A stretch of DNA of 64,000 nucleotides, taken from contig NC_092589.1 in the NCBI RefSeq assembly GCF_047663525.1, positions 25,727,001 to 25,791,000 of the forward strand. Direction: 5' to 3'. Of the stretch, positions 1,204 through 64,000 are shown in pieces (position 1 is the stretch's first letter; the number at the start of each line of letters is the position of its first letter). The notes beneath the pieces are model-generated. The model did no database searches. It saw only the letters and a list, made by a program, of their open reading frames with translations, and was not told the origin of the DNA. The position numbers and the translations under genes were made by a program. Source of the stretch: Anas platyrhynchos. Its lineage: Eukaryota > Chordata > Aves > Anseriformes > Anatidae.

Positions 1204-1256
1204 CTGTTCCACATTGTATCCATGTTTTTCCTTTGCTATTGCTATATATTCATCCA
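1204..1256 (-). CDS. RCOR3: RCOR3 coding exon, ELM2 segment (LDEYIAIAKEKHGYNVEQ)
   Basis: This 53-nt exon starts after acceptor gttacag (ending at 1257) and ends at CAG|gta (intron starting at 1203). With the T carried from the previous exon it encodes LDEYIAIAKEKHGYNVEQ, the conserved ELM2 helix of CoREST proteins. It ends on a codon boundary. It is too short to stand out as an open frame and was found by reading for the family sequence. The donor sits against CAG|gtaagtgcc, a near-consensus site. Confidence 0.95.
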
Positions 1257-2728: not shown

Positions 2729-2806
2729 ACTTGGCATCCGGAATACTATGATATGGAGACCATACGAGCATCCCTCCATTATCTTTATCAGTATATTTTG
2801 TGGCAC
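2729..2806 (-). CDS. RCOR3: RCOR3 coding exon, ELM2 segment (GATKYTDKDNGGMLVW...)
   Basis: This 78-nt exon completes the split Gly codon and encodes ATKYTDKDNGG, then MLVWSPYHSIPDAK, and ends with the first base of the following Leu codon. It is flanked by a good acceptor (ttttcttacag, ending at 2807) and a strong donor (AAGT|GTAAGT, intron starting at 2728). Both phases match the neighbouring exons. The MLVWSP block is a hallmark of CoREST ELM2 domains. Coding frame, length and residues agree with vertebrate RCOR3. An ORF on the same strand crosses the exon in another frame and is not coding. Confidence 0.95.
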
Positions 2807-5800: not shown

Positions 5801-7982
5801 CAGACATAATTTCACCTCAAGAACATAAGAATATATATAATATAGCAGGAGGAGACAAAACCTGGAGTGCAGGAGATGGTTTATTAACTCAGTAAATTAG
5901 GTATGGAGATCCACGGGGTTTATTTTATTAAAACCATTTTTCACAGCAAGCAAATTTATATCGGTGTTTTTAATTGTCATTACATCTAATGGCAATTTGT
6001 TACAGCTCTGTCTGAAGGCTTGCCTGTAAAATGGGGGTGCTGTGTAGGAAGTGGAAAGGGTGAGCATGTTTCAGCTAACTTCTCCTAGTTGCTGCTTTCA
6101 ATCACTTGTCCTCCCCAAGAGGCTGACAAAGAGTTGATTACCTTTTTCTTAAACCATTTCTTATTTTATACACGAACTCCGGTTAAAACAAACTTACTGT
6201 TGTCACAACCTTAATCATGAATGTCTTGTTCCTCAACAAATTGTTGCAAAGCATTGCTTACAAATATTGATAAATGCTGGCTAAGCGAGGCCAAAGACTT
6301 GTTATTTGTTCTACTCAGTATTCTGTACGTGTACCAGGAGCAGGCTTTGTACCTTAGACTATCTAGTTTCACCTGACGTTGACTCCTGCCTTCCACCTAT
6401 TTGATTTAAGGGGGCTAAGAAGCATTCAAAATACTGTAAATAAATACATACTCTTAACATACCTGGTAAACAGTCAGAAAAAAGGGCCTTAAAACAATCC
6501 CAAGAAGAAAAAACATTAAAATTAGTAAATTAGAGATAGTGCCTGCATCCATATATGCAAACCTGGACGCCTGATGGAATGCCCATTCCATCATTTGTGG
6601 CATGAAAAAATAATCATCTATGTGCCTACTTGAGAAGACAACAAGAGCGCAGCTTTTTGCCCAGTATCTCTCACAGATGCTGCCTCGAGAGTCATCAGAA
6701 AGAAAATATGAAAGCATGAGGTCTTGCTGAGATCTCCTCAGATAGCTAATCTTATAATGCGGTATGCATTGTATTTTTATACTTTCTGAAGTTTTTTTAG
6801 TTTGTTATTTTTCATATAAAAGATTTAGCTGTTCCAAGGAAGTTAGTTTTGTCACCCCAATAATCAAAATTTGTGCATGAGGAACAATATTATACATCTT
6901 CTACAAGACTTAAAGAAAAGTTTCCATCATTAAGGAGCTGCTCTGATAAACTAAAGAGTATGCATTAATCCCAGTTGCTGGGGGAGGGAGCATCAATTGA
7001 ATGCTAGCCCCCTAAACAGCATGTTCAAGCTCCAAGATGCCTGGTTATAAGAGAGGATAAAATTAGTCCTGTAGTAACCAGTGCAATGATCCTGACGCAT
7101 ATGTAGTTTACAAAATTGAAACTACAGAATCTCAGTCATCCTAAAAGGGGTGAAAAGCCCTTTTAATCAGAGGGAAAACAAACGCTCTGCATTTTTCTAA
7201 GTGGCCTGTAGGAAGAACAAGCCCAGGCTACACGTTAGAAACGATCATTTTTATTTATTTTTATGAAAAGAGAAGGTGTAAGCGGTTAGTCTCATCAACA
7301 AAGAGACCTGGGCTACGCTCCCCTTTCCGGGGGAAAGGCATTCCCTTCTGCCAAGAACCCGCATCCATTTAATCCCACCCTCTCCCCTTTCTTTTCCCCT
7401 TGGCCTTTCTTCGGCCTGTGGGGACTCGTGCCCATCAACAGGGGCTCCGGCTTTAGGAGGCACCGTGCGAGCAGCTCCGGCCCAATCCTCTTCCGGTGGG
7501 AAATCATCTGACACCAATGGAGCCTGCCTGGAGAACAGCAAAGTAGACGGGCTTCAGCAACGACAACCGAGGAGCCCTCCTCCAGACCTCGCCGCCCGCT
7601 GCACCACCAACCGGGCACCGGGCGGGGCGGGAGGGCCCCGTACCCCCGGGGGCAGGGGCCGGGGGGGATGAGGAGGGTGAGGAAGGCGGCTGGGGCTGCA
7701 GCAGAGGTGCCGGCCAGGCGCATCCTCGCTCTGGGCATCGCCACCTCCTCGCTCTGGGGGAATAATAGCGGGTGGCGAAGGGCGAGCGCCTCAGGGAGAG
7801 CGCCCAACCTTGCGCTGCCTCAGCTGCTAATGAAGTGTGTGCCCCCCCCCCCACAACCCCCCCACAACCAGCACAAAGCCTCAGGACACCCCCCCATCCC
7901 CCCAACACACACACACACTCGCACTCTGGTGAAATAAAAATAATAACGAGGTAAGAATTAAAGATAAAAGCAGCCGTTTTAC
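2807..7982 (-). other. RCOR3 intron 1 (long)
   Basis: Long first visible intron. It holds a GC-richer block at about 4,430-5,080 with fortuitous open frames that mostly start at GTG, and the 5' third of the CpG island at its right end. C-rich runs at about 7,847-7,905 are G-rich on the transcribed strand. No exon of another gene is recognised. Confidence 0.7.
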
Positions 7983-8031
7983 CGGGCTCGAAGTCGGGGA
8001 TGCGCGCCTGGTATTCCGCTCCGACCCTCAT
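7983..8031 (-). CDS. RCOR3: RCOR3 first visible coding exon (MRVGAEYQARIPDFEP-G)
   Basis: The exon encodes MRVGAEYQARIPDFEP plus the first base of a Gly codon, the start of the ELM2 domain. Human RCOR3, as I recall it, has EFDPG where this has DFEPG. The donor is CCCG|GTAAAA (intron begins at 7982). The ATG at 8031-8029 is a real AUG with G at +4 absent and G at -3. Just upstream, codons GAT GTA GGC match the human residues Asp-Val-Gly, and an acceptor-like tgttgcag preceded by a long C tract ends at 8040. The true exon may therefore start at 8039 and be joined to an upstream exon that I cannot find. An in-frame TAA at 8079-8077 blocks simple extension. Alternatively the AUG at 8031 is the start of a shorter isoform. 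Confidence 0.88.
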
Positions 8032-8049
8032 GCCTACATCTGCAACACA

Positions 8050-8070
8050 GGGGGGGGGGGGGGGGGGGGG
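8050..8070 (+). repeat. G21 homopolymer in CpG island
   Basis: Twenty-one consecutive G on the plus strand (C21 on the RCOR3 strand). It lies immediately upstream of the acceptor-like tgttgcag before RCOR3 coding sequence. Further G runs follow at about 8,119-8,133. Such tracts are polymorphic and hard to assemble. Confidence 0.9.
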
Positions 8071-8968
8071 CGGCGGTTAACGGCCGCGCCGTCCCAGCCC
8101 AGCGCCGTGTGGCGGCTGGGGGGGGGGGGGGGGAGCCGCCCGGGAGCCCCCCCGCCGCCGCTCAGCGCCGAGCCCCCGCCCCCGGCCCCCCCCCTAAAGC
8201 CCCCCCCGAAGCCCCGGCGACCGCCGGGGAAAGGGGCGGGGGTCGGGGGAGGTGGCTCGGCAGAACAATGGGGCCGGCGGCGGGTGGGGGGCGGGCGCGG
8301 TGCCCCCCCCTCCATACACACACACACACCTCAGGCGCCGCACGGGGGCGGTGAAGGGGAGCTGGGGGGGGGCACGGGGAGCAGCACAGGGAAGCCCCGG
8401 GGCGCCCGGGTCTTGCCTCACGGAGGCTGCGAGCCCTTCTGCATCGCGACACGGGCCGGGGGGGGGGATGTGTGTGGAGAAAAAGCGGCCGCAGCACTGC
8501 CCACCCCCGCTGTTAACACGGAGCCGCCATGTTGCCCCCTTCCTCCCCCCTCACGCCCCCCTTCCCTCCCTCATCCCCCCCGGAATCCCTCCGCGCCGGC
8601 CCGGCCGGATCTAGGCGGGAGGGCGGGGCTGCCGGCGGAGCCCCCAGCGGCGGAAGGATTCGAGCCGCAGCACAGCGGCTGAGGGGCTCCCCCGTAGGGA
8701 GGGGGGGAGGGGGGGGCGGGGACTACTTTTTGTCGCCCACGCGGGAAGGGGGGGGGAGCGGCCGCTGGTGGGGGGGGGCGGTTCGTACCGGGACGGGTCG
8801 GGGTGAGGCGAAATGAGGGCACGGGGGGGCTGGATGCAGAAATGGCAGCTCGGCAGGTAGTTCTCGGTGGCGTGATTCGCTTGTGTGTGGTGCTTTTTTT
8901 TTTTTGTTAAAAAAATGCTTATTTAACATTTTCATTTTTTATCTTCCTGCAGCTCGAGTGAGCTCCCA

Positions 8969-22294: not shown

Positions 22295-22562
22295 TTGGGG
22301 GAGACCTCTCTACAACTGCCCAAAAGGAAGGTGTGGGGAGCTGGGGGTCGGCCTCTTCTCACAGATAACTAGTGATAGGACCAGAGGGAATGGCCTCAAG
22401 TTGTGCCGGGGAGGTTCAGGTTGGGAATGAGGAGACATTTCTCCTCAGAAGGAGCAGTCAGGCGTTGGGACGGGTTGCCCAGGGAGGTGGTGGAGTCACC
22501 GTCCCTGGGGGTGCTCAAGGAGAGAGAGGTTGGACGTGGTGCTTGGGGACACGGTTCAGCGG
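22295..22562 (+). mobile_element. CR1 LINE remnant next to KCNH1 promoter
   Basis: The phrases ggggagctgggggtcggcct, cttctcacagataactagtg and gataggaccagagggaatgg, followed by ggttgcccagggaggtggtg and gagtcaccgtccctgggg, match the CR1 3' region in order. It is 5'-truncated. It is also cut at its 3' side near 22,562, lacking the usual CR1 end and tail, where KCNH1 CpG-island sequence begins abruptly. Confidence 0.85.
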
Positions 22563-22622
22563 GTGACACTGGCGGCAGGGGGAAGCCGCTCTGAGGCGGC
22601 CCCGAGCTGTGAGGCCCGGACG

Positions 22623-22771
22623 ATGGCGCTGCGGCACCGGCCTGGAGGCGGCGGCGGCGCGGGCCGCGCGGGGCGCTGCCCGGCAGGGGGCGCCGCGGGG
22701 AGGTCCGGCGGCGGCGGCGGCGGCGGCGGCCGCGGGGCTGCGGTGCGCGGGAGGCGGCGGCGGGAGGGCTG

Positions 22772-22772
<1 letters not shown>
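22623..22772 (+). other. Upstream ORF 1 of KCNH1 (49 codons)
   Basis: An AUG at 22623 opens a Gly/Arg-rich frame (MALRHRPGG...) ending at TGA 22770-22772. It lies 264 bases before the KCNH1 start, in another frame. It counts as a uORF only if transcription starts upstream of it, which the sequence does not show. Its product is low complexity and unlikely to be a functional protein; any role would be in translation control. Confidence 0.4.
22680..22693 (+). promoter_or_regulatory. CTCF-like motif
   Basis: CCGGCAGGGGGCGC matches the CTCF core CCASYAGRKGGCRS at all but the third base. It sits in the KCNH1 CpG island, where GC-rich chance matches are frequent. Confidence 0.35.
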
Positions 22773-34369
<11,597 letters not shown>

Positions 34370-34493
34370 ATACTAATTTTGTCTTGGGTAATGCCCAGAT
34401 AGTGGATTGGCCCATTGTGTACAGCAACGATGGATTTTGCAAGCTATCAGGATATCACAGAGCAGAAGTTATGCAAAAAAGCAGCACCTGCAG
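34370..34493 (+). CDS. KCNH1: KCNH1 exon 2 (PAS domain)
   Basis: A 124-nt exon encoding [35 protein letters not shown] and QKSSTC, the first half of the PAS fold. The acceptor is ttctttcaaacag (ending at 34369) and the donor TGCAG|GTATTT (intron from 34494). Incoming phase 1 and outgoing phase 2 match the neighbours. The [10 protein letters not shown] core is diagnostic for the KCNH family. Confidence 0.98.
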
Positions 34494-34719: not shown

Positions 34720-34851
<132 letters not shown>

Positions 34852-35849: not shown

Positions 35850-36934
35850 ACCAGCTAGTGATGATTGTGGAAGCAGTGCCAAGGCGCATGCAAAACAAGG
35901 AGCTGATCTGAGACAGCCAGTGTGGCTTCATCAAGGGCAAATCATGCCTGACCAATCTGGTGGCCTTGTATGTGACTGCATCAGTTGACAAGGGAAGACC
36001 AATGGATGTCATCTACCTGGACTTCTGCAAGGCCTTTGACATGGTTCCACATGACATCCTGATATCCAAATTGGAGAGAGATGAATTTGAAGGGTGGACC
36101 ATTCAGTGGATAAGGAGTTGGCTTGATGGTCACACCCAGAAAGTTGTAGGCAATGGCTCTATGTCTGGGCGGAGGCTGGTGGTGAGTGGTGTCCCTCAGG
36201 GGTCTGTCTTAGAACCTGTACTGTTTAGTATCTTTATCAGTGGCATAGACAATGGGATTGAGTGCACCTCCAGCAAGTTTGCAGATGACACCAAGCTGAG
36301 TGGTGCAGTCGATACATCAGAAGGAAGGGATGCCACCCAAAGGGACCTGTGTAAGCTCAAGAAGTGGGACCATGTGAAACTAATGAGGTTCAAGAAGTCC
36401 AAGAGTGCAAAGTGCTGCACCTGGGTCAAGGCAATCCCAGACAGGAGAACAGACTGGGAGAAGAACTGAGAGCAGCCCAGCAGAGAAAGACTTGGGGGTT
36501 CTGGTGTACAAAAAACTCAACATGAGCCAGCAGTGTGTGCTTGCAGTTCAGAAGGCCAACCGTGTCCTGGGCTGCATCAACAGAGGTGTGACCAGCAGGT
36601 GAGGGAGGTGATTGTCCCCTTCTGCTCTGCCCTTGTGAGGCCCACTTGGAGTGCTGTGTCCAGGTCTGCAGCCCCAGGCACAAGAAGGATGTGGGAATGG
36701 TTTTAAACTAAAAGTGGGGAGATTTAGATGAGATGTTAGGAGGAAATTCTTCACTCGGAGGGTGGTGAGGCACTGGCACAGGCTGCCCAGAGAAGCTGTG
36801 GATGCCCCATCCCTGGAGGTGTTCGAGGTCAGGTTGTATGGGGCCCTGGGCAACCTGATCTAGTGGTGACATCTCAGGGGCATTGGAACTAGATGGTCTT
36901 TAAGGTCTCTTCCAACCCAAGCTGTTCTATGGTC
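35850..36934 (+). mobile_element. CR1 LINE with degraded reverse transcriptase
   Basis: The open frame at 35960-36469 contains the reverse-transcriptase blocks [17 protein letters not shown] and FADDTKLSG, with the order and spacing of CR1 ORF2. A frameshift near 36,400-36,470 moves the continuation ([19 protein letters not shown] and NRVLGC) to another frame. The copy then runs into typical CR1 3' sequence (aggcactggcacaggctgcc, cccatccctggaggtgttcg, ggtctcttccaaccc) and ends at ttctatgg near 36,934. It is 5'-truncated, and sequence normally lying between these parts is missing near 36,690-36,705. It is not active. Confidence 0.92.
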
Positions 36935-46376: not shown

Positions 46377-46649
<273 letters not shown>

Positions 46650-49600
46650 TGAAAGAGATGAAGTCCTTTAAATACCAAAGCCAAAGGATTAGACGTTAAA
46701 ATAACTTGTCATTATGCCAATATGGACTGCGTATGTGCGAAGAATGGCTGCAAGTTTCCTAAAGGGATTGGCTGTGGCCTGCACTAGAACGGGTCATTGC
46801 TAATGAAACCCCCAAGTGCTGCAGGAAGCAGAGTTTACTTAGCAAATAGGTGCTGCTCTTCCGTTTAAACTCATTATTAATCCCCAGGTCAGCACAGTCT
46901 TCAAGCACAGTGTTGCTTAACAGTCTCTTTGATCTCAGAGGGAATTGAAGGGTATTGGCCCTGTACAAACTGAGTATGACACTTTATGCAGAAATGGAGA
47001 TATTAACCCTATCTGAGTCTAACCACTATCTGAATTATTTCATTCTGCCTGTCTTGACATGAATTAGCATTCTTACGGGATTCTTATATTAAAGTTCAGG
47101 ACTAGTGTCCTTTTACATCTGTGAAAAGATTACTGTAGTCTTAAATTGAATCAGGTTCAAGCTGTCAGGTTGAGTGAAGTAGCGCTGCTGTGTTTTGCTG
47201 TTAACCCTTTACTGAGTTACACCCTAGAAGCCTGGAAGTAAACTCAGCTGTGAGAGAGGCATAAACTTGCACTCACGTTCAGATCCTGTCAAAAACAGAC
47301 CTTTTGTACCCACATGGAGAATTACAGAGACTTGCGTCCTCTGGGGGGGAAAAGGACGTAAGTTCTCCTGTTGTTTGCATTTTTGTAGTATTTAATAATA
47401 TTTGTCGTATTAAATTAAACAGGAAACTTACTGTGAAGGTGAACTGATTTACATTTATTCTCAAAATATTAGTCTTTAAAAATGCAGTTTCTCGAAGTGG
47501 AAACACCTGTTACCATGAAAAAGGAAGTACAACCTTGACAAACATACCCTCTTCCAAGTTACGTTTTTTTTTTTTCTCCTTTTGAATGCTATTTGTTTCG
47601 GTTTTCAGTGCTCTAATTAAATGAAAAAAATGAGTCTTCTTGGAAAGGTTGGGTCTACAATATTTTTCCCCTGACTAGTTGTCTTCACTGAATCCTGATG
47701 AGGACTGACATCATAGATAAATCAGCATGATGCAGTAAAGCTGTCTCTCATTTATTTGGTGGGAGTGAAAGCCTTTGCTTGAGGTAGTCAGTTGATAAGC
47801 AGGGCATTCAGGGGTGGCAGCTTTGCCTTTTCTCTTTGGTTTTGCAGAAGATCCTTATTGTAGTAGTGACCTGTGCTCTTTTGAGAAGTTTGTCCACTTT
47901 CAGCACAGGAAACACTGCAACCTCTTTTTGGTTTCAAGAGAAGTATATTGAAAGAAGAATTTATTTATTGATTTTTTTTTATCTCCTGTGTTGGATCTTG
48001 AGATCACACTATTCTTGCAGTGATCATAGCGATTATTGGCAGGTCCATATCTAAAACAACAATGACTAAGCCGAAGTACAAATGCACTAACTTGCAGAGG
48101 TGCTAAGCAAAATTTCTTCATGTGGCCCATGAAAACTTGCTCAATTACTACTGAAAGTTGCAGACAGAGCAGAAGAACTGGACATATTATTTAGCAGCCA
48201 CTTATTGACAGCTCTGTACTCCCTCCCCGAGCACTACAACTCTATGTATGGAAGAGTTTGTGTACTAAATAACTGTTCCAAATATTGTTTCCAAATCTCC
48301 TAAAATTACTGAAGTTGCACCGGTTTCATGCCAGTAGAGTTCTCTGTTGCTGTATATGCAAATCAAATGTGATACAAATGAAATTACACATTCTTTTCTA
48401 ATCCTTAATTTATCCTGTGTCTTTCTCTCTTCTATAAATTACTTCCTATAGGCTAGCTTTGCAATTTTGTTGTGTGCTCTTATTAAGTGATATTATGCCA
48501 GTCACTTGGTGGCTAGATGAGCAATTCCTTGTAAAATAAAAACTAATTTGCCAAACAGAATGTTACATGCATGACCGTGTCTTTAATATCAGATCTCATT
48601 GTGCAACTGGATACTGTGAGGGTGGGAAAAGCAGGTGTGGAGTGTTAGACAATTGATTGTCTCCAATGCGTTCTGGGACTCATGGAGGGGAAGAATATTT
48701 TTGGAAGTTCCAAAAGAGGTAAAATTGTATTAGCTGTTTCTAAAAATCACTGCTTTTACAGACCTGAGCTTTGCAGAGGACACATTCTTTGCACCATATA
48801 CAACATCACATTGGAGATTTGTAGCATATATTTGAAGGACAGCATTTTTTGTAGGAACATCCCTAACATTCTAGAAACAAATGAGCTCCCAGTCTGAAAC
48901 TTAACATTGAATTTACATATTTATTGTTTTTAATTTAAACTGAAAACTGATTACTAAACTAATTATTTTTCCTTTTTCACTTTCAATCAGCTTTTATCAA
49001 CTACTCCTCTTTTATTGTGTTTATACATGAGATCAGTCTCGTGTATTTGACCAGTTAATATATAATAGGATGCTTCCGAATGCAGAAATTTTGTTAATGC
49101 TGGTTATTTGCGTAGTTGCTGAGTGGCACGGTGTGAAGTATTTGAGTTTTTCAAAATTAATGCCTGTATGTCTATGCAGAGAAAAACATTATCCAGTACA
49201 AGAACATGGTTCATTTAAAGAACAGCTAATCTGTCAGGCTGAGCCTGCTTAGCTGCACTATATCTCAGTTTTCTATCACTTTCTGGCAATTTTAAGCATG
49301 ACTCTTCATCTACAAATGATGCAGTCACTCCTGAAGTGCAAAGTATTAAACCATAATGAAAGGTGATTGACTTGTACACAAAAATTAATAGTCATTTTTT
49401 ATCCAAAGCTGATTCAGAGAAAGATAGAAGGTCCTAGTACCATTTATCATTCTAAATCCTTTTTTTTTATTTTTTTTAAATTAATAGTTTCAGAGATCGA
49501 AATAAATGAAACAAAAATATTTCTAAAGTCAAGCAAAAAGTAGGTACTAATTGTGTTGTTTCAGATAATTTAGTAGATATTTATTTTATGACTGCTATGG

Positions 49601-52600
49601 AAGTTAAGTAAATTTGCTTTTAAGTGCAGATGCTTTAAAAATAGTATGTTCTAAATAAAGCAACTTAAAAATAGTATGTCAGTGATGTTGATGATATAAT
49701 TTTTTTAAACAGCCTCTTTCCATTTTTCCCTGTATACTTTCTCCTTTAAAAAGAAAACACAAATTGGGAAGAAATAAGTAGGTGAAAGTAGCCTTGAAGA
49801 AGTAGGCAAAATCAAGTGATATCATAGCTAAATTTGGCTTGGGAAGTGATAGGTCACCATCTTCGCTGAATTTTAGAGTATATGCTATATTCTGGAATTA
49901 CAGTCTGTCTGTATGTGTCGTTTTCGATTTGAGATCCAACACACCAAGTATGAGACATTTGAGAATAGTGTATAAAGCAGAATGCATCACTTTATGAAAA
50001 CAATAACTTGTGCAAACAAATAAAGCCTGCATGCAGTCTGAGCAGCTAGTAGGAAACAGGTTTTGCACATGTGAATACGATGAGAACATAATGAGATGCA
50101 TCTATGCTGCTTTATAAAAGTTTGGGAATTGTTTTGGATTATATCTATATATATTTTATTTTTATAAAAAAGGTGCTATCAAATTCAACATCACTGAATC
50201 GCATGAGAGAATGGTTGTTAGCCTCATAGCTGTTTTAACCTCCTGTGCTTTGTAGCAATCATCAGTTATCTCCTCTGCTGAAGCTTTATTTCATTTTGCA
50301 GCTAAGCTCCCCTTTGCATCACAAGCAGGGCTGCACAAAAAATAGTATTTTGATTGCCTCCTTCATCTCAATTCAGGGAAAACTCCAGCCTAATGTTTCA
50401 TTTTTTTTTTCTTCTTGTTTCTCTATTTTTTGTTTTTAATTTTTTTTGTTCTGTTTTTAAAGATGTATTTATATGAGCAGAGCCAGTATTTGAAATATTT
50501 TGATTGTTATACTTTACTTTCATCTAGATGAATTGGTTTCTTAAAAAGGAAGCAAATGAAAGGGAAGCAGTGAGTATATTAAAAACTTCAGTATGCTTTT
50601 CCAGTCCAGATGGAAAAATAACACAGTTTTAAGTTATGAAGTTTCAAAGGAAAGGAGCATTAGGACTGCAGAGAGGCATGATGGATGTAAGCAGGGACCT
50701 TTGATATGCCAGAAAGCAATGGTGGTACCAGTGGAGGTGATAACTGCTGGAATGCTGATTTGCTTGCATTTACACATTTCTGTGTGAACAACAGACGTGG
50801 CCAAAGTTACTTTTTCTCTAGCAGTCATGTCTTTCTGGTCTCACTCTAGGGATGGTTTAACAGTCATGAATCAGCAACATGATAACAAGGATTCTGTAAC
50901 TGCCATGGTGCTTAATGTTTAAATTTGTGAGTCATTATTATCAAATAGAGGATACTTATAGGCAACAAATGATTACCTAAAATAAATAATAAATGTTGCT
51001 GTGGATTGAGTATCAACAGATCATACTCATCTCAAAATACAGAAAATTGGTTTATTTGGCTTGAACAGATTGTTAATGAAGTGAGATGTTGATGTGTAAA
51101 ATATCCCAAAGGTGTATTCTGTTGCCATGATTCCCCATGAAACAAAGTTAAGGGGACAGCTTTTATCCCTGTTGCAGGCATGTTGTTGACTTGTGTTTTC
51201 AGGAGCAGTTTTTAGTTACATTTTTACTATGAAATAGTGAAAGACTTGAAAGAGCATCATAGAATGCAGGACAGCTGAAGTTAGCACTGGAATCTTGAAG
51301 GCTCTTCATCTTTTTGAAGCTGGAGACATGAGTGCCATCTGATTGCTTTGCAGAAAACATCATGCAGGGACAGAAGTGGAAAAGGAGACCAATAATTATA
51401 AAAAAATATGTTAGAATCAAAGACATGAAGAAGCACAGGCAATGCAAAACCATGGGGCTGGCATCCAGCTTTATGTTTTGTTCCTGAATTCCAGGCTGTC
51501 TTCTCTGAAGCTATGTGAGCTCTTGCCTGTTTGTGGAATATATATACCTATATAAGAATCCCATAGAGTCATTGGATTCCAGTTTAATTTCTGTTTTATC
51601 AATTTCCAGAGGAAGAGAATGGATGTAGGGATCTTGCAACTAACTGATTATTTTGAAAGAGAACTTGTAATCCATATCATCCAGTCCTCTAGTCTTAGCA
51701 GGACTAACATCAATATGTTTCTACACCACTGTGGAACCTATTTTCTTTATTTCTCTAATCAGCCCTGTAACATTAAGAAAATAATGTTTATGTTCTCTTT
51801 TGTGGCTAAAGTCCAGTATTTGACCTGTGTTCACTGAAGCAGTCTTCACAGCTGTGGGTTGCCTCACTTCTTGCTGTAGGTTGTGTCTGCCTTTAGCATC
51901 CTGAAGGACAAATTGTAATACATTCAGTACATACTATTGTCTTTTCAAGAAGAGTTAGAGAAGTTATCCTTCTGTAGGATTAGTGCTGACTTTCCATCTC
52001 CTTTCCATTTTTTCCCCTATGCCACAATGTGTAGATGCAATATAATTATGCTTCAGAGTTCCCACAATTTTTTCTTCCTTTCATTGAAAAAAAGAAAAAA
52101 AAAAGAGGAAAAAAAGAAAAGGCAATACAAGAAGGAGAATGTCCTGTCCTAAAGATGAGATTCATACACCTGGGATACAGACAGGGTGACTCAGTTTTAC
52201 ACATTTCATCATACACTGTCATGTGCTACTTCATGCTGTGTTCCTGTGTGCTCACCCAGTGTGTGGGAGAACACAGAAACATATTCCAAGCCTCTTGAAT
52301 TCAGGTCAGCAGTGGTTCAGAAAAAGCTAAAAAGCCCTGCCTGTTGACAAAGCCTCTTGCTTGTACAGTTACATCATTTTCAGGTCAGAGTTTGGTGTAT
52401 GTGGTAAGAGCTAGCATGTTTGTAGAACAGCTCATTTGCATACCATTTAGGCACCCACGGATAAGAAATTTGCAGCATGAAGCACAGGGTAGGAGCTTAC
52501 AGGAGGTGATGTGACAGAGGAACAAGTTAAGCTCTGCCACTCTGCCTTTTAAACGGAGATTGAAGAAGATTGGGTAGAGTACATGACGGTGCTCAGCAGT

Positions 52601-52857
52601 CGTAGCCACAAACCATGTCCACAGAGATGCCTGGCAGTGTTTTTGTGCAAGATAACCCAGGTGAGGTGCACCTCCTCCCTCTCTGTATTTACACCGAAAT
52701 AGCCTGGTTATTAGACATCCCGCTGACGGGAAGAAAATCGACACTCAAAGTCTGCCCTCTGTTTTTGAATCAACTTTAGCATCCTTGAGCAGAATGGCTT
52801 ATCAGTCTGTTTTGGGTTGGTAAAAGGGGCTATTTTAGTTGGGATTCAAGCTATCGT

Positions 52858-53120
52858 GTGCCTGGTGGGGGAGGCAAACAGCTCCCAAAGGAAGCTTCAG
52901 CTCCATCCCGGGGGCTGGCGCTGGCCAGCAGCGGGGCCTCGCTTCAGCACCACGGACAGCGCCCGGCCGGAGCGGGGCATGCCCGGGGATGGGGCTCGGG
53001 CGCTCCTCTCCCGGCCTGGAGCGCGGCTCTCCTGCTCGTATCCCCTACACCAGCCCCCTCCGGGCCTCATCAGTCCGCATTTACAGCAATGAAAGCCTCC
53101 CCGTGCCGCTGGTCTTCTCT
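52858..53120. promoter_or_regulatory. KCNH1: GC/CpG-rich islet inside KCNH1 intron 4
   Basis: An isolated block of GC-rich, CpG-containing sequence stands in AT-rich intron. It contains the RE1 element and precedes a candidate alternative first exon. No repeat family is recognised in it. Possible roles are a REST-controlled silencer, an internal promoter, or both. Confidence 0.6.
52943..52963 (+). promoter_or_regulatory. RE1/NRSE (REST-binding) element
   Basis: The left half TTCAGCACC, a 2-base AC spacer and the right half GGACAGCGCC form the canonical 21-bp RE1, with every consensus position matching. REST binds such sites to silence neuronal genes outside neurons and recruits CoREST, HDAC1/2 and LSD1. 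It lies in intron 4 of KCNH1, a neuronal potassium channel gene. Binding is inferred from the sequence. Confidence 0.88.
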
Positions 53121-53197
53121 CTTGGTCCTGCAAAACAGGAGGGAAATGTTGCGGTGGTTGCGTGGAAGTTTGGTGAAAGCCAAACTTTTGGGGCAAT
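53089..53197 (+). CDS. KCNH1: Candidate alternative first exon of KCNH1 (PAS-less isoform)
   Basis: An AUG at 53089, with G at -3, opens 36 codons beginning MKASPCRWSSLLVLQNRR and ending ...KAKLLGQ. They are followed by one base and a consensus GTAAGT donor at 53198. The phase is that required by exon 5, so the product would continue [15 protein letters not shown] with S1 onward. It would lack the PAS domain encoded by exons 1-4. KCNH2 has a known counterpart (ERG1b) made from an internal promoter. The frame is open upstream to a GTG at 52858. No similarity to a known protein is recognised, and phase agreement alone has a one-in-three chance. Confidence 0.25.
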
Positions 53198-53241
53198 GTA
53201 AGTTGCTGTATATGGCTTGTGCTTCACAAAGGCTGTTCTGA

Positions 53242-53249
53242 TTACGTCA
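53242..53249 (+). promoter_or_regulatory. CRE-type site near the RE1
   Basis: TTACGTCA (TGACGTAA on the other strand) is a CREB/PAR-bZIP type element. It lies 279 bases after the RE1 and 45 bases after the candidate donor. Confidence 0.35.
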
Positions 53250-55032
53250 CCTGAAGATCATCCCGCCCGATCCATTCCTTTAACCTCTGCCACCTTTAAT
53301 GAGAACATGGTAAGGCATTCGTGCTTCAGCCTATCAGTGGTGGTTGGATTTCTTCACGTATTATGAAGAATACTGTTTATAAGTCTATCTATTACATAGA
53401 AATAAATAAAATCTACCACCTTCTATGGAAATGTATGTGAAATTAAAGTGCTTTGGGTCAGGTTTACAACAGATACAGACTGACCTCAGTTGAGGTTCTG
53501 CCATGTTGATTTGTTTCTTTGAGAAATACTGCTTCACAGTAGGTAATCTTATATGGGTTTACCAGGAAAACTTGGCTTACTGGGTAGAAATCACACAATC
53601 TACTTGTTGCTGAATATTGCCAAAAAGAGTGAGCTAATTTTATTCAACTTGGCTATTAAATTACTCGTGCCAGACTTCCTTTAAAATATGCTTTAAGATC
53701 TAAGAAAATGTTCAATTGTGTTCTTGATTTTAGAGAGGTATGATTGAAATTATTCTTGCTTTTAATAAATGCATTGTGTGGAATATGTTTAAAGGAGAAA
53801 ATGCTAACATCTCTTTTCAGGTATGGTCTGGAAGACCTTATTCAATAGCCAGTTCAGGCAATTTGTTAATTTTTTGTGTTCACCTCTCAAATTACCAAAT
53901 ATGCTTCTGCAACCTCCATCACAGATGTCAAGCAAGGATACGTTCAATGTACTGGATGGTATTTTAACCGCCCATGTTCCTTTACTCGTCATGGACCATT
54001 GCAGGCTAAGCTCCAGACTGGTCTTTAAAAACAGTCACTGCTAATAGTATTGTATCTTTTGGTGATGAAATTATAATGTAGGGAGAACTTTTTCCAGAAG
54101 CAGGATCTCATTAAGAACTGAGTCTGCAAAGTGCTGAACATCCTCAGTTGGAGTAGGAGGTGAGACTGCTCAACAGTTCCAGGTGGTGCTAGCATTTTTC
54201 AAGACTGGGACCAAATGCACTGATATTTTCCTTTCAGACTACCAAAAATATTCAGACATATACTCTGCCTGACTCTTTTTGTTATGCCAAAGCACTACAC
54301 ATAAAGGTTATAGTTAAAACTAGTTCATGTGACTGTCATTCAAGCCTTCTGCTTTGAAGGGTATTTGAAATGACTGTGAAAGTATTCTGAATTAAAATTC
54401 ACCATTTGAATTCTCTGCAAGAACTTGCTAAATGTTTTATTAGGGTTTGAGAAAATCTATTTGTGTATTTTCCCCTTTTGTTTACAGAGGATAAAATTAA
54501 TGATTTTGTTTGTTTCACTTTGTCTGCTCTGCTTTTTATAATGTTATGTATTTTGCTTTGCTTTTGCCAGAACTACGCTCAGTACATCTGAGGCCAGATT
54601 CACTTCTGTTACAGGCAGCTGTAATTTTCATTGTGCCTGATTCTATTCCTATATCTTTATTAGTCTGGAGAGTCTTCTGCAGGGTTGTGAGATCCAAATC
54701 TGGCCATTGAATTTAATAGAAGATTATTGTGAAGTGGACATTTATCCTTACAAAAGATGCAGTTTGTGTAACAGCACTCTTGTAGAGCCATTGAATACAA
54801 AGTCACTGCAGTCATTGTGGGTTTTATTACTTTACTATCCTGCCACCTTTTTTGTGTCTTGCTTTTACCTCATACATGGTTAAATTATACTCCCTTGTGG
54901 TCAATACTAACACAGATTACTCATTTTTAATTTTAACTTTTTTTTTTTTTTTTAAAGATAAACTTTATGTGATACACTTCCGGATTTTTTTTTTTTTTTT
55001 GTAATGTGTATAATCTTGTATGTTTTTTTGAG

Positions 55033-55151
55033 GTTGGGGAAAGTTTGCTCGCTTGACCCGTGCCCTCACAAGCAGCCGAGGAGTGCTTCAGCAGCTTGCT
55101 CCGAGCGTGCAGAAAGGAGAGAACGTTCACAAGCATTCACGACTTGCTGAG
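55033..55151 (+). CDS. KCNH1: KCNH1 exon 5 (calmodulin-binding linker)
   Basis: A 119-nt exon encoding [35 protein letters not shown] and SRLAE, the basic amphipathic linker between PAC and S1. In mammalian EAG1 this stretch contains the N-terminal calmodulin-binding site. The acceptor is tttttttgag (ending at 55032), with an uncommon G at -3, preceded by two long T tracts (about 54938-54953 and 54985-55000). The donor is GAG|GTAATG. The exon starts in phase 1 and ends on a codon boundary. Confidence 0.97.

Positions 55152-61916: not shown

Positions 61917-64000
<2,084 letters not shown>

Follow-up and report, generated by a model that had tools for sequence, protein, structure and literature searches.

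The 64-kb window analysed here—the whole stretch of duck DNA under study, 64,000 nucleotides in length—contains exons of two genes in head-to-head orientation, KCNH1 on the forward strand and RCOR3 on the reverse, with 14.8 kb separating the coding exons found (Table 1). Six KCNH1 exons were recovered by tblastn, using a rat KCNH1 protein as the query. Comparison with solved structures favours KCNH1 over KCNH5 at exon 4; exon 6 alone hardly separates the two. Having RCOR3 as a neighbour fits KCNH1 as well. KCNH1 is a neuronally expressed channel that has been tied to epilepsy and cancer. Its third intron in the duck carries a reverse-transcriptase fragment at 35912-36469 on the forward strand (Pfam RVT_1, E 1.2e-18), which we take to be the remnant of a CR1-type LINE. 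In mouse, Kcnh1 expression is reported in the hippocampus (PMC6965066).

RCOR3 had been described in the earlier note as the divergent neighbour of KCNH1, and the gene search bears this out: three of its exons lie on the reverse strand within the window, and five more matches, 86-95% identical and one of them with an in-stretch stop codon, were found past the window edge. The search for RCOR3 exons did not recover the one carrying the start codon. The CpG island at the 5′ end of the gene is presumed to be the RCOR3 promoter. Elsewhere in the genome, C5 carries an RCOR1-like locus. The RCOR genes are reported to be ohnologs from early vertebrate genome duplications (PMC10721905), and the synteny SERTAD4-HHAT-KCNH1-RCOR3-TRAF5 is described as common to shark, mouse, and human and as broken up in zebrafish (PMC13398235). 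Given this old synteny, the adjacency of KCNH1 and RCOR3 needs no regulatory reason. A search of the window for RNA families returned 0 matches at the gathering threshold.

Table 1. Features of the KCNH1-RCOR3 window (positions count from its first letter), with the genes and tandem arrays located at other exact RE1 places in the duck genome.
Feature	Position	Strand	Basis or remark
RCOR3 exon	1204..1256	-	tblastn
RCOR3 exon	2729..2806	-	tblastn
RCOR3 exon	7983..8039	-	DVGMRVGAEYQARIPDFEPG; tblastn
CpG island, RCOR3 5′ end	7401..8940	.	GC 0.69, 127 CpG, observed/expected 0.69
CpG island of KCNH1	22431-23570		contains exon 1
KCNH1 exon 1, coding part	22887..22959	+	ATG at 22887; tblastn with rat Eag1, 25/26 residues
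KCNH1 exon 2	34370..34493	+	tblastn; GT/AG ends, frame
KCNH1 exon 3	34740..34846	+	tblastn; GT/AG ends, frame
KCNH1 exon 4	46465..46593	+	PDB match KCNH1 E 2.9e-24; best KCNH5 5.6e-19
KCNH1 intron 4, RE1 host	46594..55032	+	GT/AG splice sites, in frame
CpG-rich patch around RE1	52801..53210	.	sole one in intron 4
RE1/NRSE	52943-52963	+	TTCAGCACCACGGACAGCGCC = left half TTCAGCACC (52943-52951), spacer AC, right half GGACAGCGCC (52954-52963)
KCNH1 exon 5	55033..55151	+	tblastn; GT/AG ends, frame
KCNH1 exon 6	61953..62345	+	PDB match KCNH1 E 1.7e-85; KCNH5 9.8e-84; Pfam Ion_trans
GPR6	L011		beside exact RE1; solved-structure match
TUBB3	L017		beside exact RE1, MC1R on far side; solved-structure match
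SLC17A6 (VGLUT2)	L015		beside exact RE1; solved-structure match
KHDRBS-family gene	L012		beside exact RE1; solved-structure match
Tandem RE1 arrays	L010:4699-4839, L011:4793-5020, L012:4785-4925, L015:4855-4946, L018:4857-5007

An RE1/NRSE lies within KCNH1, at 30 kb from the ATG, with exon 4 ending 6.35 kb upstream of it and exon 5 beginning 2.07 kb downstream. The earlier note had reported a perfect canonical element in intron 4, and both the motif and its placement are confirmed: all 19 fixed positions of the canonical RE1/NRSE are matched (0 mismatches), over 21 bp with a 2-bp spacer, and the bordering exon ends are of GT/AG type and in frame. The consensus used is the one given in the earlier note; its length of 21 bp and its 2-bp spacer agree with the form described in PMC9903721. 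On both strands of the window, the site is the sole match at up to three mismatches, and it remains so at up to four; dinucleotide shuffles of the window did not yield any RE1 at up to three mismatches (0/100). Across the whole genome (1.26 Gb, 42 contigs), the exact motif was matched 16 times, at 13 places, and the reversed control pattern 0 times. Allowing up to one mismatch, a search that also covers KCNH1 beyond the window, gave 56 matches versus 0 for the control. The exact RE1 motif is far above chance in the duck genome, where the KCNH1 site belongs to a small set of perfect matches. The element itself reads as real, correctly described, and well above chance, and as an ordinary example of a well-known class.

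The RE1 is set in a CpG-rich patch, defined by GC above 0.55 and a CpG observed/expected ratio above 0.6 in 200-bp windows. A 181-bp core around the motif has a GC content of 0.74 and a CpG ratio of 0.68, versus 0.37 and 0.11 in the flanks, a comparison that the GC-rich motif itself biases. All of the 12 CpG-densest windows, among 1960 between 24.6 and 63.8 kb (a range that excludes KCNH1's own island), fall in this patch. Genome-wide, the core CpG ratio is at least 0.58 at 15 of the 16 exact RE1 sites, the exception being L009 with 0.12; the flank ratio is also at least 0.59 at 6 of the 16, and as a control the CpG setting therefore carries little weight. A background statement in PMC11155190 has it that methylation can be remodelled by REST binding. 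These data suggest a setting that would fit low methylation at the RE1—CpG retained within a CpG-depleted intron—presumably in the germline.

An origin of the RE1 from a repeat was considered and rejected. A genome search with the 541 bp around the site, by a method that skips very common words, found no second copy, the stretch matching only itself; local alignment with the remaining 15 exact sites extended over at most 49 bp at 86%, confined to the motif and its edges. As far as this search can tell, the stretch does not appear to be a dispersed repeat. The CpG-rich patch was likewise considered as an exon: four open reading frames of at least 75 aa cross it, and the two that were scanned gave no Pfam match.

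Two RE1-like half-sites precede the motif. A left half at 52896-52904 on the forward strand (one mismatch) begins 47 bp ahead of the RE1; a right half at 52917-52926 on the opposite strand (one mismatch) ends 17 bp before it; together they are possibly a decayed second copy, or else chance. Among non-canonical RE1 forms in an MPRA, repression was reported only for atypically spaced, same-strand pairs (PMC9903721). The half-sites here lie on opposite strands, unlike those pairs, and a degraded second RE1 adjoining the site was set aside as a candidate. No second canonical or split RE1 was found at the KCNH1-RCOR3 locus, in a search of the window and 30 kb beyond the RCOR3 end. A decamer, GGGCATGCCC, at 52975-52984, 12 bp past the RE1, is a perfect p53 half-site by the consensus; p53-like decamers of this kind are frequent by chance expectation.

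REST is encoded in the same genome, at C4:15364275-15372687, with no internal stops. With human REST as the query, its finger segments are 86% and 92% identical, and a short piece is 73% identical. The 12 other exact-RE1 places were searched for genes within ~5 kb, by codon score and over the best six open reading frames per locus. A gene was recognised at four of them, each checked against solved structures (Table 1), and none at the other eight within that scope. GPR6, TUBB3, SLC17A6, and the KHDRBS gene, probably KHDRBS2, are neurally expressed; MC1R is not neural. As far as it goes, genes beside the strict motif are of the sort one would expect. A literature search for an RE-1 in the first intron of TUBB3 found no paper on it.

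RE1/NRSE silencers bound by REST/NRSF are well known, with examples at SCN2A, STMN2, and TUBB3; once bound to the RE1, REST brings in Sin3-HDAC and CoREST-LSD1 complexes, and it keeps nerve genes off outside the nervous system. The KCNH1 site shares with these silencers the 21-bp consensus with its 2-bp spacer, a neuronal gene, a genome that encodes REST, and the lack of a second copy in the searches made. It differs from them in being solitary and deep in an intron; otherwise nothing about it is distinctive. We consider it likely that 52943-52963 is a functional, solitary intronic RE1 silencer of KCNH1, the observations behind this reading being the motif, its excess over chance, the CpG setting, the single copy found, the location in KCNH1, and the REST gene. 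In non-neuronal and progenitor cells, the zinc fingers of REST would bind the perfect 21-bp motif in intron 4; Sin3-HDAC and CoREST-LSD1-HDAC complexes would then be drawn in by bound REST, active histone marks would be stripped, and KCNH1 would stay off, silenced from 30 kb inside the gene. As REST drops in neuronal differentiation, KCNH1 would be released. The reading of KCNH1 as a REST target in the earlier note is supported to the extent that sequence allows: a perfect RE1 occupies a neuronal channel gene, REST is encoded in the same genome, and the four recognised RE1-side genes are neural as well. Its extension to cross-regulation with RCOR3 is not supported.

The closest published system concerns the same gene in mammals, in which blocking the contact between REST and Sin3 in mouse hippocampus raises Kcnh1 (PMC6965066). 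The legend of the relevant figure describes 64 genes as RE1-containing REST targets; the text describes them as both target and non-target genes, all of which rose. Because the panel, by that text, included non-target genes, the rise of mouse Kcnh1 may be indirect. That study interferes with REST-Sin3 contact and, in its accessible text, gives no RE1 position. No position for an RE1 in KCNH1 was found in the main text of the papers examined on REST and KCNH1. The main text of a paper on REST-knockout HEK-293 cells names neither KCNH nor RCOR, and PMC2782136 names neither KCNH nor RCOR3. The intron 4 RE1 offers an exact, testable cis-acting candidate for the control of KCNH1 by REST in a bird.

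The intronic position of the site, far from the promoter, is a point against its being a silencer of KCNH1. Nor is the motif proof of silencing, since an MPRA saw strong repression from just 2,657 (31%) of 8,436 canonical sites bound in human ChIP (PMC9903721). REST might instead bind the KCNH1 RE1 with no measurable effect on the gene, the site being strong but either neutral or young, like many that REST binds. The 31% figure would be consistent with this, as would a lone copy at such a distance from the start codon. Conservation of REST binding is also limited: of the REST peaks in human, just 15% have a conserved counterpart in mouse ES cells, and of the mouse peaks 30% have one in human; 50.5% of non-conserved, cRE1-containing human peaks are without a matching mouse motif (PMC4499139). 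Given this low conservation between human and mouse, the KCNH1 RE1 could be lineage-specific. However, the perfect motif, the CpG patch, and the neuronal gene all argue against a neutral site, and the same MPRA describes a threshold of motif strength for silencing, with repression by strong motifs and not by weak ones (PMC9903721). On balance, we regard binding without effect as unlikely. A chance match that REST does not bind is exceedingly improbable, as both the window shuffles and the genome counts against the reversed pattern argue against it.

The earlier note had also proposed, from the shared locus, that KCNH1 may be cross-regulated with RCOR3. REST at the intron 4 RE1 would then repress RCOR3 along with KCNH1, limiting the gene of its own corepressor; equally, the RE1 would act as a domain-level silencer of the gene pair, and the loss of REST in neurons would free RCOR3, a short form of which can antagonise CoREST1. 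The head-to-head arrangement and the 14.8-kb interval between the coding exons found would suit such a scheme, as would the increase in RCOR3 mRNA that accompanies declining REST in human NGN2 neurons (PMC11226837) and a review that cites chicken RCOR3 as acting with REST at NANOG (PMC7070449). However, the RE1 lies 44 kb from the RCOR3 CpG island, inside the other gene, and none lies nearer RCOR3. Across 94 kb (the window and 30 kb beyond the RCOR3 end), neither the surroundings of the RCOR3 promoter nor the interval between the two genes yielded an RE1, and nothing other than the intron 4 site had fewer than five mismatches; that site aside, two matches have five mismatches (one for the reversed control), and at up to six mismatches there are 20 in all, versus seven for the control.

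Published expression data for RCOR3 conflict (PMC4482511, PMC11226837). RCOR3 rose 7.8- and 6.0-fold in two human cultures in which the change in REST mRNA was not significant (PMC11226837), which speaks against a shared silencer; so do reports of unchanged CoREST3 during the differentiation of rat neurons and of broad CoREST expression across adult tissues (PMC4482511). The adjacency is, moreover, an old synteny (PMC13398235). Cross-regulation of KCNH1 and RCOR3 is neither shown nor needed; a silencer shared in a feedback arrangement appears very unlikely, and a domain-level silencer of the pair highly improbable. Were the latter true, a shared element would partly maintain the old adjacency seen in shark, mouse, and human. 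The KCNH1 RE1 would matter more only if it also governed RCOR3, and the evidence does not favour RCOR3 control.

As a solitary RE1 that probably silences KCNH1, the intron 4 site can also be set against other RE1s in the same genome. Tandem arrays of four to six RE1 copies, at up to four mismatches and spaced 21-47 bp, occur at 5 of the 13 exact-RE1 places (Table 1). They share with the KCNH1 site the exact motif and a CpG-rich patch; the KCNH1 site differs in being a single copy. One array lies just upstream of the stretch that matches GPR6, one by SLC17A6, and one by the KHDRBS gene, and two are at places without a recognised gene. Among the works surveyed, none is by its title concerned with tandem RE1 arrays, and these multi-copy REST arrays may merit separate study. 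Close clusters of one-mismatch RE1s (TTCAGCACCRCGGACAGCTCC) were also observed, at C3:11198451-11198563, C15:7945963-7946039, and C2:52140651-52140705.
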